From: an uncultured Candidatus Saccharibacteria bacterium
GTDB lineage: Bacteria; Patescibacteriota; Saccharimonadia; Saccharimonadales; Saccharimonadaceae
Assembly: GCA_945873065.1 (NCBI GenBank)
Contig: CAMCBN010000002.1
Span: forward strand, 1-64,000
Length of the DNA stretch: 64,000 nucleotides
Direction of reading: 5' to 3'
Shown: positions 1 to 8,993 of the stretch, one piece after another
Layout of the letters: every line of letters starts with the position of its first letter
Numbering within the stretch: position 1 is the stretch's first letter
The notes under the pieces: model-generated
Told to the model about the DNA's origin: nothing
Database searches by the model: none
What the model saw: the letters and a program-made list of their open reading frames with translations, nothing else
Made by a program: the position numbers and the translations under genes

Positions 1-2
1 AC

Positions 3-716
3 GTCGGTGTGGAGAGTGAGGTAGGGGTTGATGGAGAGCTTGGAGCGGAGTCCGAAACGGACGAGGATGCTCTGTCGCTCGATATATCACCACAGAGTGC
101 AGACGAGACTGCTGCTGAGATTGACGACGGCTCGCTAGGCGTCGACGAACAGGCGGCCATCGAAGACGTCGCCGCTCTTGAAGACGCTGCCAGCATAGAA
201 GATGAGGGCAATGTCGACTTGGATGCTGTGTTGTCCGCTGAGCCCGAGGTGGAGGATCAGATGGGCGCAGTAGATGGCAACGATGACGAGCTGGACTTCG
301 TATCCGAGGCCGAGGTCGCGGAACTAGAGGCTTCGCTCTCCGACAGCGACGCGGCGCTTGACGACGACTTTCTATCACTGGGCGAGCATGACGACATGGC
401 AGTGCAAGACTCACCATCGGCTCTCGATGACACCACCGACCTTCAGGATGACTTCTTGGACGCAGACGACACTAGTAGCGTCGACAGCGTCTATGATGAT
501 TTCCTCTCCATGGATGACCTGGCTGTAGATGAGGAGGATTTGCCGGATAGCGCCGTAGACGCCGGCGACGAACTAGGATTCAACGAGCCGGCAGATGTCG
601 GCCTTGACGCCGGCAGCGATGGTTTTGACATAGATGCAGACAGCGATGCAGATGCAACTGACATGGATGCCGATGACGACGGTGACGTGTCAGAGAGTGG
701 AGGTTTCTCCTTATGA
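3..716 (+). CDS. very acidic low-complexity protein, 3' part (element-encoded)
   Basis: The reading frame is open from the left window edge, so the true start probably lies outside; the first in-window start codon is a GTG at 9. The product is almost entirely Asp/Glu/Ser/Ala/Val with no recognisable domain, transmembrane segment or cysteine, and is probably disordered. Its TGA stop overlaps the ATG of the coupling-protein gene (ATGA), implying translational coupling and a shared role in the element. Because such composition gives open frames easily, function cannot be assigned. Base composition is GC-rich, unlike DNA right of 8.76 kb. Confidence 0.6.
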   Translation, partial: VGVESEVGVDGELGAESETDEDALSLDISPQSADETAAEIDDGSLGVDEQAAIEDVAALEDAASIEDEGNVDLDAVLSAEPEVEDQMGAVDGNDDELDFVSEAEVAELEASLSDSDAALDDDFLSLGEHDDMAVQDSPSALDDTTDLQDDFLDADDTSSVDSVYDDFLSMDDLAVDEEDLPDSAVDAGDELGFNEPADVGLDAGSDGFDIDADSDADATDMDADDDGDVSESGGFSL

Positions 717-2299
717 ACGAACTATTCGCGCTATCTCGCGCCCTGCTCTCGAGTGGCAAGGGTGCCTATCTTGGGGAGGATAGCGAAGGCAGCTTGATCT
801 ACCTCCCCAAGGAGCAAACACTAACTGTACTAGGAGCTCCTCGGTCTGGCAAGTCGACTCGCGTATTTGTCCAGTCCATCGCCGCATTTCCAGGCCTTGC
901 CGTGTGTACGTCGACACGAGCGCCTGGACAGCAGCAGCACCCAGACATCATCGAGGTCACCGAGTCTGCCCGTCAGCAGCTGGCGGATGTATCAGGCGGC
1001 AACGTGGTGCACGTCGCGCTTAATCCGGCATCACCCACCCACTACAAGTCTTGGAACTTCTTGGAGGGGTGCAAAGACTGGAAGGTTGCTGAGGAGCGCG
1101 CCAGATTCTTCGTGTCAGCTAGCCTGGTGGGTGAACACACCGTCAACAACGCCGACTTCTTCCGCGGTGCAGCCATCCAGGCTTTGGCACCAATCATGAT
1201 GGCATGTGCTTTAAATCGTAAGCCCGCTAGCATGTTCGCAGAATTGGTGCGTAAGATGCGGCTACGCAGTTCGGGATCTGACACTGACGTATTTGATTCG
1301 ATGGGCACCCTTAAGAATGCTTTCAAGAGGAAGCGAGGGACAACACATCCCGCGAGCCTTGCGTTGGCGAACTTTCTCTCGAAAGATAAGATCTCCGACG
1401 AGACGCGGCAGAATGTGATGGCGGTGATTGGCAATGTCATACTTCCATCGATCGAGCGATGCTGTCCGGATGGACGCGATGAGTTCACGCTATCGGAACT
1501 CTTCAACGGTGATTCGACGCTGTATCTGCAGGCACGTTCTGGCAATACACAAATCGTTGCACCCTTTGTTGCAGCGCTGGTCGGCTCGCTAGTGACTCAG
1601 TGGCGCACCACGGCGGTAGAAGAGCGCCCAACCGGGTGCATGCTTGCCCTGGACGAGGTGGCAAACATCGCCCCCATCCATACCCTGCCCGAGATCATGT
1701 CTACAGCCGGCGGCGATGGCATTACGGTTGTTCTTGGCGTGCAAGACGTCCAGCGCATGGATGCGATCTGGCCTAGCGAGGGCTACGGCATCGTGGAGGG
1801 AGGCAGCCAGTTGCTCCTACCTGGCTACCGCGATGCTGCCTACCTGCAGCGCATCTCTGAGCTCACTCCCTTAGTCAATCGCTACCACACGAACGTCTCG
1901 GTCGATCACGAAGCGCTCAAAGCCGTCCCACATCGCGGCATCACAACGACTGACCTGATCGAGTCGGCAACACGGCGAGCTCGGAGCGTTGAGCGTGTCG
2001 ATCCACGCATCCGTGGCCTGTGCGACCAACACTTTCTTCGCATGGAACGCGCCAACATGCTGATGAAGGGGCAACAGATTGGCAAAATCGGCGACTCATT
2101 CGAAGAGTGGGCGCAGCACTACAACAGTGTCGTGTCGATCGACCATGTCGGCACTCTGCGGCACGCCCTTGAGCCCCACGAGCTCTTCGAGTTGCCACAC
2201 GGCCAAGCGCTCGCCATCTCCGGCACAACCATGGCCATGCTCAAGCTACCCGGCTGGTGGGAGTCGCCCTTGTGGCGGGACGTGCTTGGAGTGTCCTGA
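713..2299 (+). CDS. TraG/VirD4-type conjugative coupling ATPase (TraM-recognition domain)
   Basis: A 528-residue P-loop ATPase of the type IV coupling protein class, which brings DNA-relaxase complexes to a conjugative channel. Walker A is GAPRSGKST at residues 41-49, and a Walker B-like stretch LALDEVANIAP begins near residue 311, followed by a conserved GVQDVQRM segment typical of the TraG/TraD C-terminal half. The N-terminal membrane helices of VirD4 are absent, so it may be a soluble form or anchored by a partner. It starts at an ATG overlapping the upstream stop. The style resembles actinobacterial ICE proteins (inference). No relaxase, VirB4 or integrase is visible in the window, so only part of the element is present. 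Confidence 0.8.
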   Translation: MNELFALSRALLSSGKGAYLGEDSEGSLIYLPKEQTLTVLGAPRSGKSTRVFVQSIAAFPGLAVCTSTRAPGQQQHPDIIEVTESARQQLADVSGGNVVHVALNPASPTHYKSWNFLEGCKDWKVAEERARFFVSASLVGEHTVNNADFFRGAAIQALAPIMMACALNRKPASMFAELVRKMRLRSSGSDTDVFDSMGTLKNAFKRKRGTTHPASLALANFLSKDKISDETRQNVMAVIGNVILPSIERCCPDGRDEFTLSELFNGDSTLYLQARSGNTQIVAPFVAALVGSLVTQWRTTAVEERPTGCMLALDEVANIAPIHTLPEIMSTAGGDGITVVLGVQDVQRMDAIWPSEGYGIVEGGSQLLLPGYRDAAYLQRISELTPLVNRYHTNVSVDHEALKAVPHRGITTTDLIESATRRARSVERVDPRIRGLCDQHFLRMERANMLMKGQQIGKIGDSFEEWAQHYNSVVSIDHVGTLRHALEPHELFELPHGQALAISGTTMAMLKLPGWWESPLWRDVLGVS

Positions 2300-2543
2300 C
2301 GCTTGCCGGAACTACCGTCATAGAACTACCACAGTAGGCACCTGCGGCCTCTTGATCGTTGCAAAGTTTACGTCGGCACTTGTGAAATACTCCAGAAGAC
2401 ATGCGAAGTCTCACCTACTCGAGACATCGGAAATTTGAACGATTGACATATAACAGATTGGTTGCGGACATGGGTGCAGACCTCAGCATCGCTTGACGTT
2501 CCGTTATACTCGGCCACACTAAAGAGACTTAGGAGGTAGCACC
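2300..2543. other. intergenic region before the DUF2188-like ORF
   Basis: This stretch has no supported gene. It contains a candidate -35 TTGACA (around 2444-2449) and a TATACT at 2505-2510, but neither is paired with a good partner at normal spacing, so the promoter of the following small ORF is not resolved. A strong Shine-Dalgarno AGGAGG lies at 2531-2536. Confidence 0.4.
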
Positions 2544-2765
2544 ATGCCAGCCAATGTCGAAACATACAGCGAGGACAATCGATGGAAGAATCGCGTCCTA
2601 GGCAATAAGCGGGCTAGCAACACGTTCGACACCAAGGCCGAGGCGCAAGCCAAGGGACGTGAAATGGCCTAAATACTCCTTAGCGAGCATATCATCAAGA
2701 AGCGAGACGGCACCATTGGTGAGCGCAACTCCTATGGCAATGATCCTTACCCACCAAAGGGCTAA
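2544..2765 (+). pseudogene. DUF2188-like small protein interrupted by an in-frame stop
   Basis: From the ATG at 2544 (7 nt after AGGAGG) the frame gives 42 residues, then TAA at 2670-2672, then continues in the same frame for 30 more residues to a second TAA at 2763-2765. Both halves together look like one DUF2188-type protein. The first half carries W-K-N-R, the FDTKAEAQAKGREMA helix segment, and the second half carries EHIIKKRDGTIGERNSYGND, which is the usual end of that family. No frameshift is needed, so a single nonsense codon separates the halves. It is either a recent pseudogene, a sequencing error, or two separately translated pieces. Confidence 0.7.
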
Positions 2766-2809
2766 CTGAAACTGACCTCACCAAAGTACGACAGTAACTC
2801 TGCGATAAG

Positions 2810-2855
2810 GCGGGCACATTCTCCTTGGCCAAGGAGGATGTGCCCGCTCTCTCTC
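2810..2855 (+). terminator. intrinsic terminator after the DUF2188-like ORF
   Basis: GCGGGCACAT (2810-2819) pairs with ATGTGCCCGC (2838-2847), and inside it CTCCTT pairs with AAGGAG around a GGCC loop. One opposed pair is mismatched. A pyrimidine tract TCTCTCTC follows. The tail is not a pure T-run, but the stem is very strong. Confidence 0.65.
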
Positions 2856-3152
2856 GTGGGTTCGAGGCGATGAGTTACAAGTTGATGACGCGGCACAGGC
2901 GGTCTGTCACTGATAGCTTTCGGAAACACAAAGTAACCAACTTATAAGCGGTAATTTAATGTCTTAATCGACGACCTTCGATACACCTACCCAAAGGTCG
3001 ACAAATTGCCTCGGGTATGGGCGACAAAATGGCAGTGGTGCTAGGTCGCACGTGCATGGCGCTATGCTTGCGAAGGCGTCCGCTTCGGCAGGAACACCGA
3101 AGCCTCCAACGTCTCCGCTCGCTGCTTGTTCAAACTAAAATAGGAGAAAACC
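2856..3152. other. non-coding stretch, possible gene remnant
   Basis: I see no supported gene here. A short open frame ending in TAG just before the next RBS (about 3048-3140) encodes a composition resembling a protein C-terminus but has no start and is preceded by a stop. It may be a decayed gene tail. An AGGAG at 3142-3146 serves the next gene. Confidence 0.3.
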
Positions 3153-3923
3153 ATGGCCAACGAGGAACCGCTCTACCGCGCCATCGTCCCCGAAGGAACC
3201 CACCTCGCACGCTCGAACAACACCGAAGGTGCGTTCCGAGGTGCCGTTCTTGACGACGAGACCAACCAGGTAAGTGGGCAGGCTGAGCTGGTTGAAGTTG
3301 ATCGTGATGAGGATGATGAATCGAATGAGTCCTCCGATTTGAGCACTGCAGTTGCTATGTTGGCAGTCGCGGGAGCGTCCATCGCAGGCACCATTTTTGT
3401 CTCAGCGGTTGCTCCCAAGATTAAGACTTGGTGGGGCGACACGGCGTATCCATCATTGAAGGCAAGGCTCGGATCGCTGCTCACTCAGAAGAGTCAGGAG
3501 GAGCAGGTGGAGATTGGGGCGGCGATCGATAGCACGGCGTTGGCGAAAATTTCATCTGCCGATGCATCGACTGAGCTATCCATCGCGATGGCTGATCTGA
3601 ATTTTGTTATGAGTAGCGAGGAAGCGCAGCAGAGGTTTGTCACGCTTCTGCTTGCTGCGGCCGTTGCGGCCCATGAGCTTCGTACGCTCAAGAATGCGTC
3701 AATTGCTGGTGAGTCCGAACGCCAGCAAATTCAAGAACTGCTCGACAAATTTGCCGACGAATCAGTGGTCAGTCTTGCGAACAGGGTGTTTGACTCCAAT
3801 ACTGGGCTAGCTGTGGTAATGGATGCGGCCTTACAGAGGGTTCTTGGCCAAAGTGGACAGAACGATGGAGCGTATCTGCCACTGCAACGTGACCATTTCC
3901 ACGAGCTGCTGCAGCTGTCGTAG
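3153..3923 (+). CDS. hypothetical protein with one membrane helix
   Basis: A 256-residue protein of unknown family. It has an acidic N-terminal 60 residues, one hydrophobic helix near residues 66-88 followed by W-W, and then an Ala/Leu/Glu-rich helical region. Start ATG 3153 is preceded by AGGAG with 6 nt spacing. It stands alone between the terminator at 2810-2855 and the convergent XRE pseudogene. Its base composition matches the left arm. I do not recognise the family and assign no function. Confidence 0.65.
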   Translation: MANEEPLYRAIVPEGTHLARSNNTEGAFRGAVLDDETNQVSGQAELVEVDRDEDDESNESSDLSTAVAMLAVAGASIAGTIFVSAVAPKIKTWWGDTAYPSLKARLGSLLTQKSQEEQVEIGAAIDSTALAKISSADASTELSIAMADLNFVMSSEEAQQRFVTLLLAAAVAAHELRTLKNASIAGESERQQIQELLDKFADESVVSLANRVFDSNTGLAVVMDAALQRVLGQSGQNDGAYLPLQRDHFHELLQLS

Positions 3924-3933
3924 GAGACGCAAT

Positions 3934-4246
3934 CTACTCACCCACCCCTCCCACCAACTCCTCCACCCGCACATCCAGCGCCGTCGCCAGGGCGATGAGG
4001 GTGCGCAGGCGCGGGTTCATCGGGGTGCCGGGGCGGGACTCGCCTTTCTCGAACTTTTGGTAGGTGTAGGTGGAGATGCCGGCAGCATGGGCCATGGGCT
4101 TCTTGGCTGAGGCCCTTGGCGATGCGGGCGCGCTGCAGCCGCAGGCCAAGCTGGCGGGCGATGGGCCACCACTGCTCGTCTTGGCTGGTGGAGGAGGAGT
4201 CGCGCACGGCACCAGCGTCGAGCGGGTGCCTACTTGGCACCACCAT
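3934..4246 (-). pseudogene. XRE-family HTH regulator with a frameshift
   Basis: Two overlapping minus-strand frames each hold half of one Cro/CI-type regulator. The upstream frame gives QLGLRLQRARIAKGLSQE, the first helices of an XRE domain. The downstream frame gives MAHAAGISTYTYQKFEKGES and then LRTLIALATALDVRVEELV, the recognition helix and final helices. Joining them near 4096-4104, by skipping one base in the GCCAAGAAGCCCATGG stretch, restores a continuous HTH with normal spacing. The frame-A ATG at 4246 lies within a 14-bp palindrome. Either a real frameshift or a base error; as read it cannot make a complete regulator. Confidence 0.75.
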
Positions 4247-4256
4247 ACATGTATGG
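4243..4256. promoter_or_regulatory. perfect 14-bp palindrome, candidate XRE operator
   Basis: CCATACATGTATGG is a perfect inverted repeat overlapping the start codon of the divergent XRE gene and lying about 110 bp before the DUF4209 gene. XRE regulators commonly bind palindromes beside their own start, so it is a candidate autoregulatory operator that could also control the right-hand gene pair. This is inference from position and symmetry. Confidence 0.45.
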
Positions 4257-4366
4257 CAATCTAGAGATGTCAGCCGAGATGGAGGGAGGTGAGCGTCATG
4301 GGTGGCGACTGACCACGCGCCCCACGTAGGGGCTACCCCATCTGTATTACCGTAAGTTGGAAAGAC

Positions 4367-6253
4367 ATGGACTATAGCGAACTCGACCAGTACTCAAAGA
4401 GTGATATCACGCAGATTGCCGATGTCATTAACATCATCGCCGCCGAAGCAAACAAGCCGTGGACGATCCTTCAGAGGCTCGGCGAGCGAAAGCTTGATGA
4501 ACCAGACCTTAAAAATAATCCTGTGCTTCCATACGCTGAGCGGGCACTTGCTTACAGTTTTGTTGAGGACAAGAAGAATCCTGGGGCCGTGGTGCTTGGC
4601 GTACGTCTATCCTGCGCAAGCGATGAGTGGCCGCTAGCATTTAAAGATGTTTCCTCAATCGAAAAACAAGTTTGGTGCGAAATTGCAGAACAGTGCACAC
4701 ATCATCTAGCGAAGGCACACATGCTAGATGTAGCACTATCATGTGGCGCAATCCGTGGGCGCGACGTCGCTAAGGAGGTCGCCGAGCTCTATCTGACCGT
4801 TGCTCAAGATGTCAACATAGAAATATACTATCGAGGCGGCTGTCTACGTCGTTGTTGGAGTATTGCTCGTTCATATGGTTTGCATACATTAGAAGCGCAG
4901 GCAAAGAGTGCGTCCTGTCAGATGGCACACCAGATGGTGCAACTTATGTTCAAGCCACCTGAAATCCCCACAGGAATCCTGCTGCAGCCGTTTGAAATAA
5001 TTACTGTTCTCCCGCAGTGTGGCGAATTTAACAATCCCAGTCGGCAAGACGTGCAGACTCTACTAAAGCAGGTTCGCTCTCGGTCGGCAACCAACGTGTC
5101 GACCCTTGAAGGTGTATCCGAATTGCTTGTCAGAGTGGCGAGCACAGATTCTGAGCGCGACGAAGCACGCCGCTCGCTGATAGAAAATTACCTTGCTTTA
5201 GGTGAAGATGCAAAAGGGATGCTTGCTTCTTCATATTTTGAGAAGGCGGCCGGAAATGCCAATAAGTACGGTTTCACTGATTTAAGAGATCGCGCAGTAC
5301 AGCGGTTGCAGGCCGTACCGTATGAAGACCTCGGCATGCAAACACTTCCAATTGAGTTACGAATCCCCTGTTATGCCATTGATGCAACGCTGGATCACTA
5401 TCGGCATTCGCGAGATGGGCTTTCTGCGCTTGACATCTGGCTAGCTGGCGCGTCCCCCACCGGCTCTTACGAAAGTAACGTTGCTTTTGCCAAGGAAAGT
5501 ATGGATGGCTCCATTATTGCTGCGGTAACCAGAACCACTTTCTACGGAAACATGCCGACACGTACGAGTGCAGGCGTTGAAAGTGCGGTCGTCGAGGCAA
5601 CTGAGCGGCAGGAACTGATCAACGTGGGACTTTATGGGCAGACGCTTGCGCATGAACTTAAGGCGATTAAGTATCAATACGGTATCGTCACGCCCACACA
5701 AATTACTGCTCATCTGGTACAGACCTATCGATGTGACTCGCAACTTGCTCTTGCGCTGGGGCACGCCATCGTTAGTTTCTGGGACGAGCGCTACACCGAC
5801 GCTGGACGCGCTGCTTTTCCTCTCGTCGAAGCAGGAGCTCGAGGCGTTCTGCTATTGCTTGGTGACCCACTGTATCGGATCCAAACAGGCAACGCTGGCG
5901 GGCACTTCCCGTCACTCGAAAAGTACGCTGAAAAACTTGAGCAGCATGACTTCGACATCGATTGGCTTCGGTGCATCCGCAATCCTGTCGCCAAGTGGCG
6001 CAATGCTCTCGCTCATGGTCATCGGCTTGAACTAGCAGACTATGAGGCGGCCGTGCTGCTGCGTACCGCCGCGCTGCTCGTCGTCTTGACGTCAGGTAAT
6101 TCTTCCGAAAAAGACAAAGAGGAAATCGAAATGAGTCTTCGCGACCCGGTGCATTGGGCGGCCAACCAAGCCGAACTCATGCAAAAGTGGGAACAAGTAT
6201 GGGCGCCAGTATGGGAGCCCAAAATTGGCACAACTGATCTAAAGGAGTCATGA
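4367..6253 (+). CDS. DUF4209-type protein with C-terminal RNxxxHG motif
   Basis: A 628-residue, mostly helical protein without signal peptide or membrane segments. Near the C-terminus, residues 545-551 read RNALAHG, matching the RNxxxHG signature of Pfam DUF4209 and also the R-x4-H pattern of HEPN nucleases. The function of DUF4209 is not established. A weak GGAAAG precedes the ATG at 4367. The stop overlaps the next start (ATGATGA), so the two proteins are coupled and may form a complex. The upstream XRE gene with palindrome, the mobile-element context and the HEPN-like motif suggest a defence or toxin-type module (inference). Base composition is intermediate between the flanking TraG region and the right-hand chromosome. 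Confidence 0.7.
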   Translation: MDYSELDQYSKSDITQIADVINIIAAEANKPWTILQRLGERKLDEPDLKNNPVLPYAERALAYSFVEDKKNPGAVVLGVRLSCASDEWPLAFKDVSSIEKQVWCEIAEQCTHHLAKAHMLDVALSCGAIRGRDVAKEVAELYLTVAQDVNIEIYYRGGCLRRCWSIARSYGLHTLEAQAKSASCQMAHQMVQLMFKPPEIPTGILLQPFEIITVLPQCGEFNNPSRQDVQTLLKQVRSRSATNVSTLEGVSELLVRVASTDSERDEARRSLIENYLALGEDAKGMLASSYFEKAAGNANKYGFTDLRDRAVQRLQAVPYEDLGMQTLPIELRIPCYAIDATLDHYRHSRDGLSALDIWLAGASPTGSYESNVAFAKESMDGSIIAAVTRTTFYGNMPTRTSAGVESAVVEATERQELINVGLYGQTLAHELKAIKYQYGIVTPTQITAHLVQTYRCDSQLALALGHAIVSFWDERYTDAGRAAFPLVEAGARGVLLLLGDPLYRIQTGNAGGHFPSLEKYAEKLEQHDFDIDWLRCIRNPVAKWRNALAHGHRLELADYEAAVLLRTAALLVVLTSGNSSEKDKEEIEMSLRDPVHWAANQAELMQKWEQVWAPVWEPKIGTTDLKES

Positions 6254-7923
6254 TGACAAAGCACAGTGAACTGGACAACGATGAACGCATGCAGATCAGG
6301 GGTCGACTCAAGCAAGAGCAGATGATCGAATCTGCCTTCACGAACGGCGATGGCCCATGGACAATTGTGTATGACGACTGGCGTTTCGACAATAATGACA
6401 ACGGCGGTCGATACATGGCGTTTGCTCAGCCGAGGATGCGCGACAAGATCCTTTCGCACGCTGGTTGGGATTTTACAAAGGGAGACGGCCACCCTGGATT
6501 CAGAACCAGTCACGACGACACAGAGTACTATCGAAGTAGCCACGCACCAGAATTTGAGCCGCTCGTAATTTGTCACTACTTTTACGGCGTTGTTCCTGAT
6601 GTGCTGTATATTTCAGAAGAGTTCAGGCTGTTGATGAATCTGTGGCAAGATCCAAAGTCTGGCGACTACTATGAAATCAAAGATGACGGCTCAAAGAATC
6701 TTGCCATTAGATATAAAGGCAAGCGAATCGAAGTGCGGACACCACTATTGAAGCGCTATATGGCGGCTCGGCAACTGGATGCCGTGCTATTCATCGATAC
6801 ACGGACATCTGTTGAATACGGTGGCGATGTCGCGGATTTTTCGGATCTCGAGTTTGAAGGACAAATTGATGATGAGCTCATGTATCTCTCGCGAAGTGTT
6901 GGCAGGTCACCGCTTAGTGATGCACGTGTTGGCTCACTAGTATTCGCTAAGCGGATCCTTCCCGCTCCGCCTCAGGAAACCTGCGGAATCTGGCCCTGGG
7001 ACGAGACCGATCCGTCGGACTACCCAGAGTTCATCATTGGCGAAGACGAGTACGGTAAACCGGTCAAGTATACATGCGATCCAGATCGTCTTGCCAACTA
7101 CTTCGGCAAAAATCCAGACGCGCCACATTATCTCACGCCAGTATTCTTCAAACCAGAGGTGCTCCAGAAGTACTATGACGACTCTGACTTGTACACGGTG
7201 AGTGATGGGCATTTGTCCTGCGCTTCCATGTGGGGCGTTAAGATTGACAATGGCAACCCAAATTGCGTCGTCGTGTTTCTTGGCGATATCGGTCGCGACA
7301 TTCCTGAAAGCCACTGGGCTCACTGGCTCTCACACAACGTACCACCGACACAACGCATGAGCGATGTAGGTGTGCGACGAGCCTTCTTCGGGCAGTTTGC
7401 AGAAAGTGAGAACCCAGAACACCGCTTCAAGCTGGCGTACGACCAATTGCAGAACTCGTGGGAAGATCACTGGGGATGGCGGCTCCATCGCAAAGCAGAA
7501 GGGCCGGACGCTGGCGTGCTTCAGCGTCTGCGCATCCCCGTCAACGACACCGACGCAGAACTGCGCGCGCAGTTGATCAACCTCGCACTTGTCTTGGTGG
7601 ATTACCTCAATGAGAAGCAGGTGGCCTCGTACCTCTCAGACGCCAAGGGAGACAAAGGCATCGCCAAGCTCAAGAAATTCCTCGAGGCCCAGTCATACCA
7701 ACATACCGAACGCGACGTCCGCCTTCTGCAAAGAATCCAGAGGATGCGCTCCCGTATTGGGGCGCATTCGTTAGGTAGTAGTGGACAGGCCTATCTCGAG
7801 GAAGAACTCGGGAAGGACACTCCGCAGGAGTACATCGCACGCCTCATGACCGAAGCAACGCAAATGCTGGATAATCTCAGGGCGTTTGCGGAGAAGCGGC
7901 CGTTGCAAGATTCAGACTCATAA
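6250..7923 (+). CDS. unknown protein coupled to the DUF4209 gene; HEPN-like C-terminus
   Basis: A 557-residue soluble protein whose start ATG overlaps the DUF4209 stop. The N-terminal half (to about residue 380) is rich in aromatic and acidic residues and I recognise no family. The last 150 residues are helical and contain RMRSRIGAH, in which R500-x5-H506 fits the R-x4-6-H spacing of HEPN RNases. No signal peptide or membrane helix is present. With its partner it forms a two-gene unit in which both products end in a HEPN-like motif, an arrangement I do not recognise as a named system. The RNase role is inference from a short motif only. Confidence 0.65.
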   Translation: MMTKHSELDNDERMQIRGRLKQEQMIESAFTNGDGPWTIVYDDWRFDNNDNGGRYMAFAQPRMRDKILSHAGWDFTKGDGHPGFRTSHDDTEYYRSSHAPEFEPLVICHYFYGVVPDVLYISEEFRLLMNLWQDPKSGDYYEIKDDGSKNLAIRYKGKRIEVRTPLLKRYMAARQLDAVLFIDTRTSVEYGGDVADFSDLEFEGQIDDELMYLSRSVGRSPLSDARVGSLVFAKRILPAPPQETCGIWPWDETDPSDYPEFIIGEDEYGKPVKYTCDPDRLANYFGKNPDAPHYLTPVFFKPEVLQKYYDDSDLYTVSDGHLSCASMWGVKIDNGNPNCVVVFLGDIGRDIPESHWAHWLSHNVPPTQRMSDVGVRRAFFGQFAESENPEHRFKLAYDQLQNSWEDHWGWRLHRKAEGPDAGVLQRLRIPVNDTDAELRAQLINLALVLVDYLNEKQVASYLSDAKGDKGIAKLKKFLEAQSYQHTERDVRLLQRIQRMRSRIGAHSLGSSGQAYLEEELGKDTPQEYIARLMTEATQMLDNLRAFAEKRPLQDSDS

Positions 7924-8094
7924 CCATCGAAGATGTCTTCTTTGGAAAATGGTGTTGTTGGCGGCCTTCTCATAGGCATGGGGTCCAGTTGCCGTCTAAC
8001 AACCTTCATCCGGCCAGTGGCGAAGGCTATCAGCGCTTCATATGGCTCTGGGCGCTCTTTGACGATGGAGGCACTGCGCTCACCGCCGCTCTCG

Positions 8095-8730
8095 TCAGTC
8101 CTTGCGAGCAGCCGCCAGGTGACGCCCGATGGTCATACCACTGAAGCCCAGCCGCTTGGCGATCTCAGCGATGGTCAAGCCTTGCTGGCGGAGGAGGATC
8201 GCCTGGGCACGGTCTTCGTCGGTGAAGCGGCGGTGGCGTTCCAGCCCTGTCTGCCCGCGCAGCCGGTAGACCGTCGAGCGGTTGACGCCCGTCTGCCGGA
8301 CGATCTCCTTGACGGGGACGCCAGTGCGGTACAGGTCGACCACCTGCTGGCGCTGCTCCGGCGTCAGGGGCCGGAACTTCGTCTGCTTGATGCGGTCGAC
8401 CACACGCGGCGACCGTGGCACTGTGTCGGGTGCATCACTCTCACCGTTCGGCCGCTCCCCCACGCTGCTGTCCGATGCGGTGCATCGTCGTTGCAGGGAC
8501 TCACCTTCTGGCTCTGCCGCATCTGCCCCGTGAAACGGCCTGGACTCGTCCGCATCGCCCACTGCGCCATCTGACCCGTCAGTAGCCGGCAGATGCGCTA
8601 CATTGGGGCTGGTACACACCTGGCCGTCCTCACCGGCGGCCAGCTTCCTTCGGAAGTCCAGCAGCACCATCAGGTTGTTAGGGTCAATGGTGCGGAGTTG
8701 TACCACGATACTCGTATATGTAATTCGCAT
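8095..8730 (-). CDS. double helix-turn-helix protein (recombinase/transposase-type HTH)
   Basis: A 211-residue product with two consecutive HTH segments in the C-terminal half: LTPEQRQQVVDLYRTGVPVK followed by GVNRSTVYRL, and TDEDRAQAILLRQQGLTIAE followed by FSGMTIGRHL. These resemble the Hin/resolvase and IS-type HTHs. The middle region is low-complexity and polar. No serine-recombinase or DDE catalytic domain is present, so it may be a regulator or a DNA-binding accessory of the element. Only a weak Shine-Dalgarno precedes the ATG at 8730. The start lies almost at the composition change around 8.74 kb, so the N-terminus could be artificial if the junction is an assembly join. Confidence 0.6.
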   Translation of the reverse strand: MRITYTSIVVQLRTIDPNNLMVLLDFRRKLAAGEDGQVCTSPNVAHLPATDGSDGAVGDADESRPFHGADAAEPEGESLQRRCTASDSSVGERPNGESDAPDTVPRSPRVVDRIKQTKFRPLTPEQRQQVVDLYRTGVPVKEIVRQTGVNRSTVYRLRGQTGLERHRRFTDEDRAQAILLRQQGLTIAEIAKRLGFSGMTIGRHLAAARKD

Positions 8731-8771
8731 TGGGTGGGATCTTTCTTAAGACGGCTTCAGTTAATAAATAC

Positions 8772-8800
8772 ACGCTCACCCTATAGGGTGAGCGTTTTAT
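8772..8800 (+). terminator. perfect stem-loop terminator, possibly of a lost chromosomal gene
   Basis: ACGCTCACCC (8772-8781) and GGGTGAGCGT (8786-8795) pair perfectly around TATA and are followed by TTTTAT. It lies 15 bp after a TAATAA double stop at about 8758-8763, as at a normal gene end, but no plus-strand gene leads into it. This suggests that the gene it served was cut off at the junction with the left arm. Confidence 0.7.
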
Positions 8801-8881
8801 TGGAGCGAGAGAGTGGGGGTGGAGGAGGCCAAACACCGTGTAGATTACGTTAAGTATCGGAGTTGCAGTGAACTAGCGGTG

Positions 8882-8918: not shown

Positions 8919-8993
8919 GGCCTCATCGTCTAGCGGTTAGGACACTGGGTTCTCATCCCAGCAACCCGGGTTCGATTCCCGGTGAGGTCACCA
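8919..8993 (+). tRNA. tRNA-Glu (anticodon CTC), CCA encoded
   Basis: The acceptor stem GGCCTCA pairs with TGAGGTC (one G-T pair). The D arm is GTC/GAC, the anticodon stem CTGGG/CCCAG carries loop TTCTCAT with anticodon CTC (Glu), and the T arm CCGGG/CCCGG carries TTCGATT. Discriminator A is at 8990 and a genomic CCA at 8991-8993. I found no duplicate of its 3' end in the left arm, so it is not shown to be an integration site. Confidence 0.95.

Follow-up and report, generated by a model that had tools for sequence, protein, structure and literature searches.

Introduction

Mobile elements that use tyrosine integrases to target tRNA genes insert at the 3' end of the gene and leave the tRNA intact. 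Self-splitting integrases are, according to a 2021 review, exclusively archaeal and of the tyrosine type (PMC8371274). In these suicidal (SSV-type) integrases the attP site lies within the integrase gene, and insertion at a tRNA splits that gene so that each end of the element keeps one part; the catalytic domain is found in the C part, and the core has 40-50 bases (PMC8371274; Badel et al. 2020). The large serine recombinases of phages and ICEs (phrog_95; PF00239 + PF07508 + PF13408) act at a short core with half-sites on both sides, and a survey of these enzymes mentions no tRNA targets (PMC10083194).

We analyzed a window of 64,000 nucleotides that forms the start of contig C2 (166,787 bp) in the genome of an uncultured Candidatus Saccharibacteria bacterium (six contigs, 853,655 bp), a tiny parasite. 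The window opens with one end of an integrative element that, as we hold with high confidence, inserted at the CCA end of tRNA-Leu(TAG), carries attP inside its own serine recombinase gene and splits this gene upon integration. An attP within the gene and a split to opposite element ends are thus features in common with the archaeal suicidal integrases, whereas a tyrosine integrase (Phage_integr_3) and an archaeal host are not: the enzyme is a bacterial serine recombinase with its catalytic domain in the N part, and the core has four bases. It works like an archaeal suicidal integrase and is not one. Its domain order and its short core flanked by half-sites are those of the phage and ICE large serine recombinases, to which the family adds a C-terminal HTH-HTH extension, an in-gene attP and a tRNA CCA target. 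With the tyrosine-integrase tRNA elements it shares insertion at the tRNA 3' end and an intact tRNA, but the enzyme is of the serine type and only the CCA end, not a long tRNA segment, is common.

Results

The GC content falls from 55.5% in positions 1-8703 to 46.3% in 8704-64000, a step of about nine points that is completed within 200 bp of 8.7 kb. Positions 7985-8703 are homologous (90.6%) to contig C13 of a genome of the same genus, G012, and the homology ends at 8703, inside the ACCA at 8702-8705. This ACCA is the true border, about 30 bases to the left of 8731-8800. The initial annotation had noted a sharp change near 8.74-8.76 kb; the change is real, as the GC step, the HTH open reading frame at the border and the hairpin attest, but the junction itself lies at the ACCA. 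Two features noted previously were seen again: the HTH frame that begins at the boundary and, after its start, a perfect hairpin followed by a run of T. The attR core matches, base for base, the CCA end that tRNA-Leu(TAG) has in attL on contig C6; the junction copy in G012, which reads GTAC followed by TGACG and lacks the full ACCA, counts against the assignment. The features of the window are collected in Table 1.

Table 1. Features of the attR region and of the part of the element contained in the window.
Feature	Position	Strand	Evidence or remark
Acidic protein gene, C-terminal part (603 aa in G012), cut by contig end	1..716	+	
VirD4/TraG-type coupling ATPase	713..2299	+	PF12696, PF02534
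Element protein of unknown family, conserved in G012	3153..3923	+	
Cro/C1-type HTH regulator	3934..4212	-	
628-aa protein of unknown family	4367..6253	+	
557-aa protein	6250..7923	+	Distant relatives (24-34%) on Pseudomonas, Rhodococcus and Streptomyces plasmids
C-terminal (HTH-HTH) half of split large serine recombinase	8095..8705	-	Domains, family tails, in-frame fusion (GVVVQLRTIDPNNLMVLLDF...) with N half on C6
attR crossover core ACCA (TGGT on - strand)	8702..8705	.	End of G012 homology at 8703; same core and phase in both recombinase halves
B' side: chromosomal 3' flank of target tRNA gene, including terminator	8706..8801	+	Relatives with tRNA-ACCA and then a terminator directly
Rho-independent terminator (cgctcaccc-tata-gggtgagcg + TTTT)	8773..8798	+	Most likely that of tRNA-Leu(TAG), now displaced
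tRNA-Glu(CTC), next chromosomal gene, intact, not the target	8919..8993	+	

The HTH frame as listed spans 8095-8730 (minus strand) and reaches 8730 only because the chromosome-side sequence that supplies its first nine or so codons (8706-8730) stays open. When the recombinase on contig C6 is cut at TGGT, the complement of ACCA, and joined at TGGT to the HTH frame of the window, the resulting fusion (...GSYRGVVVQLRTIDPNNLMVLLDF...) runs for 754 codons without a stop, and the boundary HTH gene is thus the C-terminal part of a recombinase. The earlier remark that no integrase is seen does not hold at genome scale: contig C6 has the recombinase of which the HTH gene is the other half.

On contig C6, tRNA-Leu(TAG) lies 7.8 kb before the contig end and terminates in ...CATCCGCACCA, directly followed by CGACTCCCC...; the order in attL is tRNA-Leu(TAG)-ACCA-CGACTC... 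and then the serine recombinase, oriented towards the tRNA, whose frame is open through the tRNA border and continues for 88 bases past the CCA end. The gene (C6:82915-84600) has the Recombinase (PF07508, E 5.6e-11) and zinc ribbon (PF13408, E 4e-07) domains and matches phrog_95 (E 2.3e-45). The N-terminal Resolvase catalytic domain is absent from this copy and present in relatives (G148, G068), so we regard the C6 gene as a truncated member of the large serine recombinases.

The acidic gene is divided between the contigs, with its C-terminal part at the start of the window and its N-terminal part at the end of contig C6; contig C11 of G012, which has it as a single 603-aa gene, bridges the two. 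The adjacency of C6 and C2 would follow from the recombinase frame, the core and this bridge, the halves of the element lying on different contigs. On our best explanation of the whole, which we consider very probable, the element measures about 17 kb, with window 1-8703 as its right part and C6:83,000-90,742 as its left part. Among ICE hallmarks it has a coupling protein; no relaxase or VirB4 occurs among the scanned genes, with about 0.5 kb or more absent between C6 and C2.

Contig C13 of G012 carries matches to both Gabija proteins (GajB, E 4.6e-229; GajA, E 2.8e-169), whereas the homologous genes beside the C6 recombinase (C6:86745-89293, corresponding to L033:7745-10293) are broken. Together with the lost catalytic domain, these broken Gabija-like genes indicate that the element is decaying in the window's genome, where the copy looks immobile and is probably unable to move by itself. 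In G012, GajB is full-length and GajA is interrupted by a frame break (L040:1650-4956), and a small contig of the same genome (G012:C14; L041:2518-4815) encodes a 766-aa AAA_13 ATPase that matches the candidate defence family PDC-S06 (E 2.7e-132).

The 95-bp attL sequence is repeated without a difference at tRNA-Leu(CAG), at 97.5 kb of C2, which makes tRNA-Leu(TAG) a likely, not a proven, partner of the attR in the window. An origin of the window's attR from an element copy other than that at tRNA-Leu(TAG) is in keeping with these two identical attL flanks and with the alleles of the acidic gene at both ends of C2, but we judge it unlikely, given that G012:C11 joins the end of C6 to the start of C2 and that the other attL lies on the wrong side and has a decayed recombinase. 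The tRNA-Leu(CAG) locus (C2:97539-97625; L111:5540-5626), where the 95-bp flank is followed by the decayed recombinase, is a second, older insertion of the same element. The acidic-gene alleles at the two ends of C2 (window 1-336; C2:166458-166787, or L021:10459-10788) are inverted relative to each other and 88% identical, with the first 55 bases identical and the differences frame-preserving, and the right-end copy breaks into chromosomal sequence after 330 bp; they likely represent two element copies with a common collapsed repeat.

We surveyed recombinases of this type in 151 genomes of the bacterial family, and a profile search with the HTH tail found further copies in 394 genomes; the genomes compared were mostly drafts. 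Across the 151 genomes these recombinases sit directly 3' of many kinds of tRNA gene, and all 20 recombinase frames with an adjacent antisense tRNA extend beyond the CCA end. Within the clade of the window's element, which targets tRNAs for Leu, Arg, Ala, Met, Pro, Gln, Ser and Ile, the core stands in a single codon phase, NTG GYN, in 13/13 N parts. Seven more distant serine recombinases (L077-L083, ~24% identity) run into tRNA genes as well; in four of them (L077-L079, L082) the core stands in a different phase, and these fall outside the claim. Of the 25 HTH tails examined, 24 open their homologous part with TGGT in the clade's phase, and a conserved half-site (~TGGTGGACCTATCGGAACCTTACTCGAAC) comes next. 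A terminator-like hairpin is found in 16 of the 25 attR flanks of related elements, as against 7% of shuffled sequences. In four genomes (L170 in G116, L171 in G150, L172 in G049 and L169 in G275) several HTH tails stand in tandem with a few kb between them, which would suit repeated insertion of elements at a single tRNA.

Both halves were found on the same contig in four genomes, G014 (6.99 kb), G122 (16.5 kb), G164 (21.6 kb) and G158 (5.4 kb), at opposite element ends and on the same strand, and in each case they fuse in frame without a stop; counting the pair from the window and C6, five of five pairs do so. Genome G068 has an unsplit gene of 749 aa with the order Resolvase-Recombinase-Zn ribbon-HTH-HTH, and the N part in G148 has all the canonical domains (Resolvase, Recombinase and Zn ribbon). 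The HTH gene at the boundary could instead be an independent regulator or a recombination directionality factor at the element end, with no part in the integrase: after integration it has an open frame of its own, and translation from codons near the core is possible. The single core phase of the HTH tails and N parts, the five stop-free fusions and the unsplit protein of G068 speak against such a role, which we consider very improbable, and for a recombinase tail.

If the flanks outside the G164 element are joined at ACCA, the predicted uninterrupted site is tRNA-Ile(GAT)-ACCA-CTAGGTGGTGTTTTTT, which 21.6 kb occupy in that genome. Three genomes of the same genus as G164 (G019, G150, G171) have this tRNA-Ile site empty, matching the reconstructed attB across ACCA with one base different in the stretch given, and in all three a terminator stands directly 3' of the tRNA. 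For the tRNA-Leu(TAG) locus itself no empty site was found in relatives, because the DNA downstream is rearranged in them. Nor could the missing neighbour be located through the FAD-oxidase gene that lies 3' of tRNA-Leu(TAG) in G006, since in G000 and G012 that gene has been relocated to a place upstream of recG. A search for a long duplicated tRNA 3' end at the far element ends gave chance matches only, as a four-base core predicts; the pattern ACCA-N-ACTC is far too common for locating att sites.

On the chromosomal side, a TAATAA stop at 8762-8767 and the terminator had been read as the remnant of a truncated gene. A truncated chromosomal gene was rejected: no open frame runs into the TAATAA, which ends no gene because an in-frame TAA (8747-8749) precedes it by 15 bases. 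The segment corresponds to a natural tRNA 3' flank, as at element-free tRNA genes in relatives, and in three congeners (G004, G006, G009) a terminator lies within about 10 bases after tRNA-Leu(TAG). The terminators directly 3' of the empty tRNA-Ile sites argue in the same direction, and the orphan terminator of the window is thus most likely the tRNA's own, moved away by the length of the element. The initial annotation was right in seeing no repeat of the 3' end of tRNA-Glu, for tRNA-Glu is not the target; the core is shared with tRNA-Leu(TAG) on C6, at its CCA end.

An actinobacterial origin of the element was likewise rejected, the close homologues among the genomes and plasmids searched being Saccharibacterial only. 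Window 1-4004 matches contig C11 of G012 at 88-89%, and the element DNA overall matches that genome at 88-91%. A scan of 84,980 species genomes with the coupling protein, covering close relatives only, returned a single relative, a Saccharibacteria MAG (JAUMZP010000007.1; 93% protein identity), and plasmids gave no close match. For the "actinobacterial-type" DNA of the earlier description no actinobacterial source was found in these searches. That the contig is a chimera joining Saccharibacteria DNA to DNA of an actinobacterial host might be suspected from the element's location at a contig end, the GC step and the 55-base words shared by contig ends, which are typical of a de Bruijn assembler stopping at repeats. 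We regard this as exceedingly unlikely: the junction falls exactly on a tRNA CCA core and in the recombinase frame, which is not expected of a random contig join; this genome itself contains the partner half with its tRNA; a second Saccharibacteria genome has the same element and HTH end; and both sides of the junction have Saccharibacteria homologues, rather than different organisms meeting away from a recombination site. The boundary is an att site at which an integrative element of Saccharibacteria is inserted, and it interrupts no protein gene; of the readings originally offered, insertion is borne out, and chimera and gene truncation are not.

Discussion

The split structure, its core and phase, its recurrence across the family and the empty sites are direct observations, and from the in-frame pairs, the unsplit G068 gene and the empty tRNA-Ile sites it follows that attP lies inside the integrase gene and that integration splits it. 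In the mechanism that we consider most likely, the circular element would encode a full-length recombinase, and attP, located between the coiled-coil region and the two C-terminal HTH domains, would recombine with the CCA end of a tRNA gene. The exchange, at the four-base core ACCA/TGGT, would leave the tRNA whole and cut the recombinase gene in two. The N part then reads into the antisense strand of the tRNA, and the HTH part ends up at the opposite end, next to the terminator displaced from the tRNA. The excised circle would restore the full enzyme, with the junction ...GTCGTGGTACAACTCCGC... in frame; no circular form was encountered.

Loss of the HTH tail may reduce, stop or redirect the activity of the recombinase. 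The split may even be a built-in switch, in which the N part, itself a complete serine integrase, would swap its HTH tail for a tRNA-encoded tail and thereby change the direction of the reaction. The N part keeps Resolvase, Recombinase and Zn ribbon in relatives such as G148, and both halves remain open in many genomes; the C6 copy of the window's genome, without a catalytic domain, speaks against it. Retention of all canonical domains in intact relatives makes the switch about as credible as plain loss of activity, and we put its chances somewhat below even. Equally tentative is the broader view that bacterial serine integrases became self-splitting by convergence, that the universal CCA core opens many tRNAs to them and that the trade of tails serves as a directional switch without a directionality factor.

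A bacterial serine version would imply that the self-splitting strategy evolved independently of the archaeal tyrosine integrases. The open-access literature yielded no example of a serine integrase whose own gene contains attP, which does not prove priority. The unsplit protein was compared with 50,697 phage records, of which 251 matched the canonical part, and with 72,556 plasmid records, of which 87 did (338 in all); none covered 80% of the protein. Viral contigs, queried with three recombinase sequences and with the HTH half, gave no relative. The family offers pairs of natural attachment sites whose tiny core sits at the CCA ends of tRNAs, and its compact enzymes make the purpose of self-splitting testable. 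For Saccharibacteria, which are hard to manipulate genetically, it defines the exact borders of mobile elements, including those that carry Gabija.

Lastly, such elements are a possible reason for contig breaks at tRNA genes in Saccharibacteria. A single 3' flank is common to three tRNA-Pro genes (C1 end, C3 start and C3:4142-4217; L029, L024) and looks like the half-site and terminator of another element, and a 48-bp 3' flank is common to tRNA-Leu(TAA) and tRNA-Gly(TCC) (C4 end and C5 start; L031, L026). Several contig breaks of the window's genome fall at tRNA-linked repeats of this kind.
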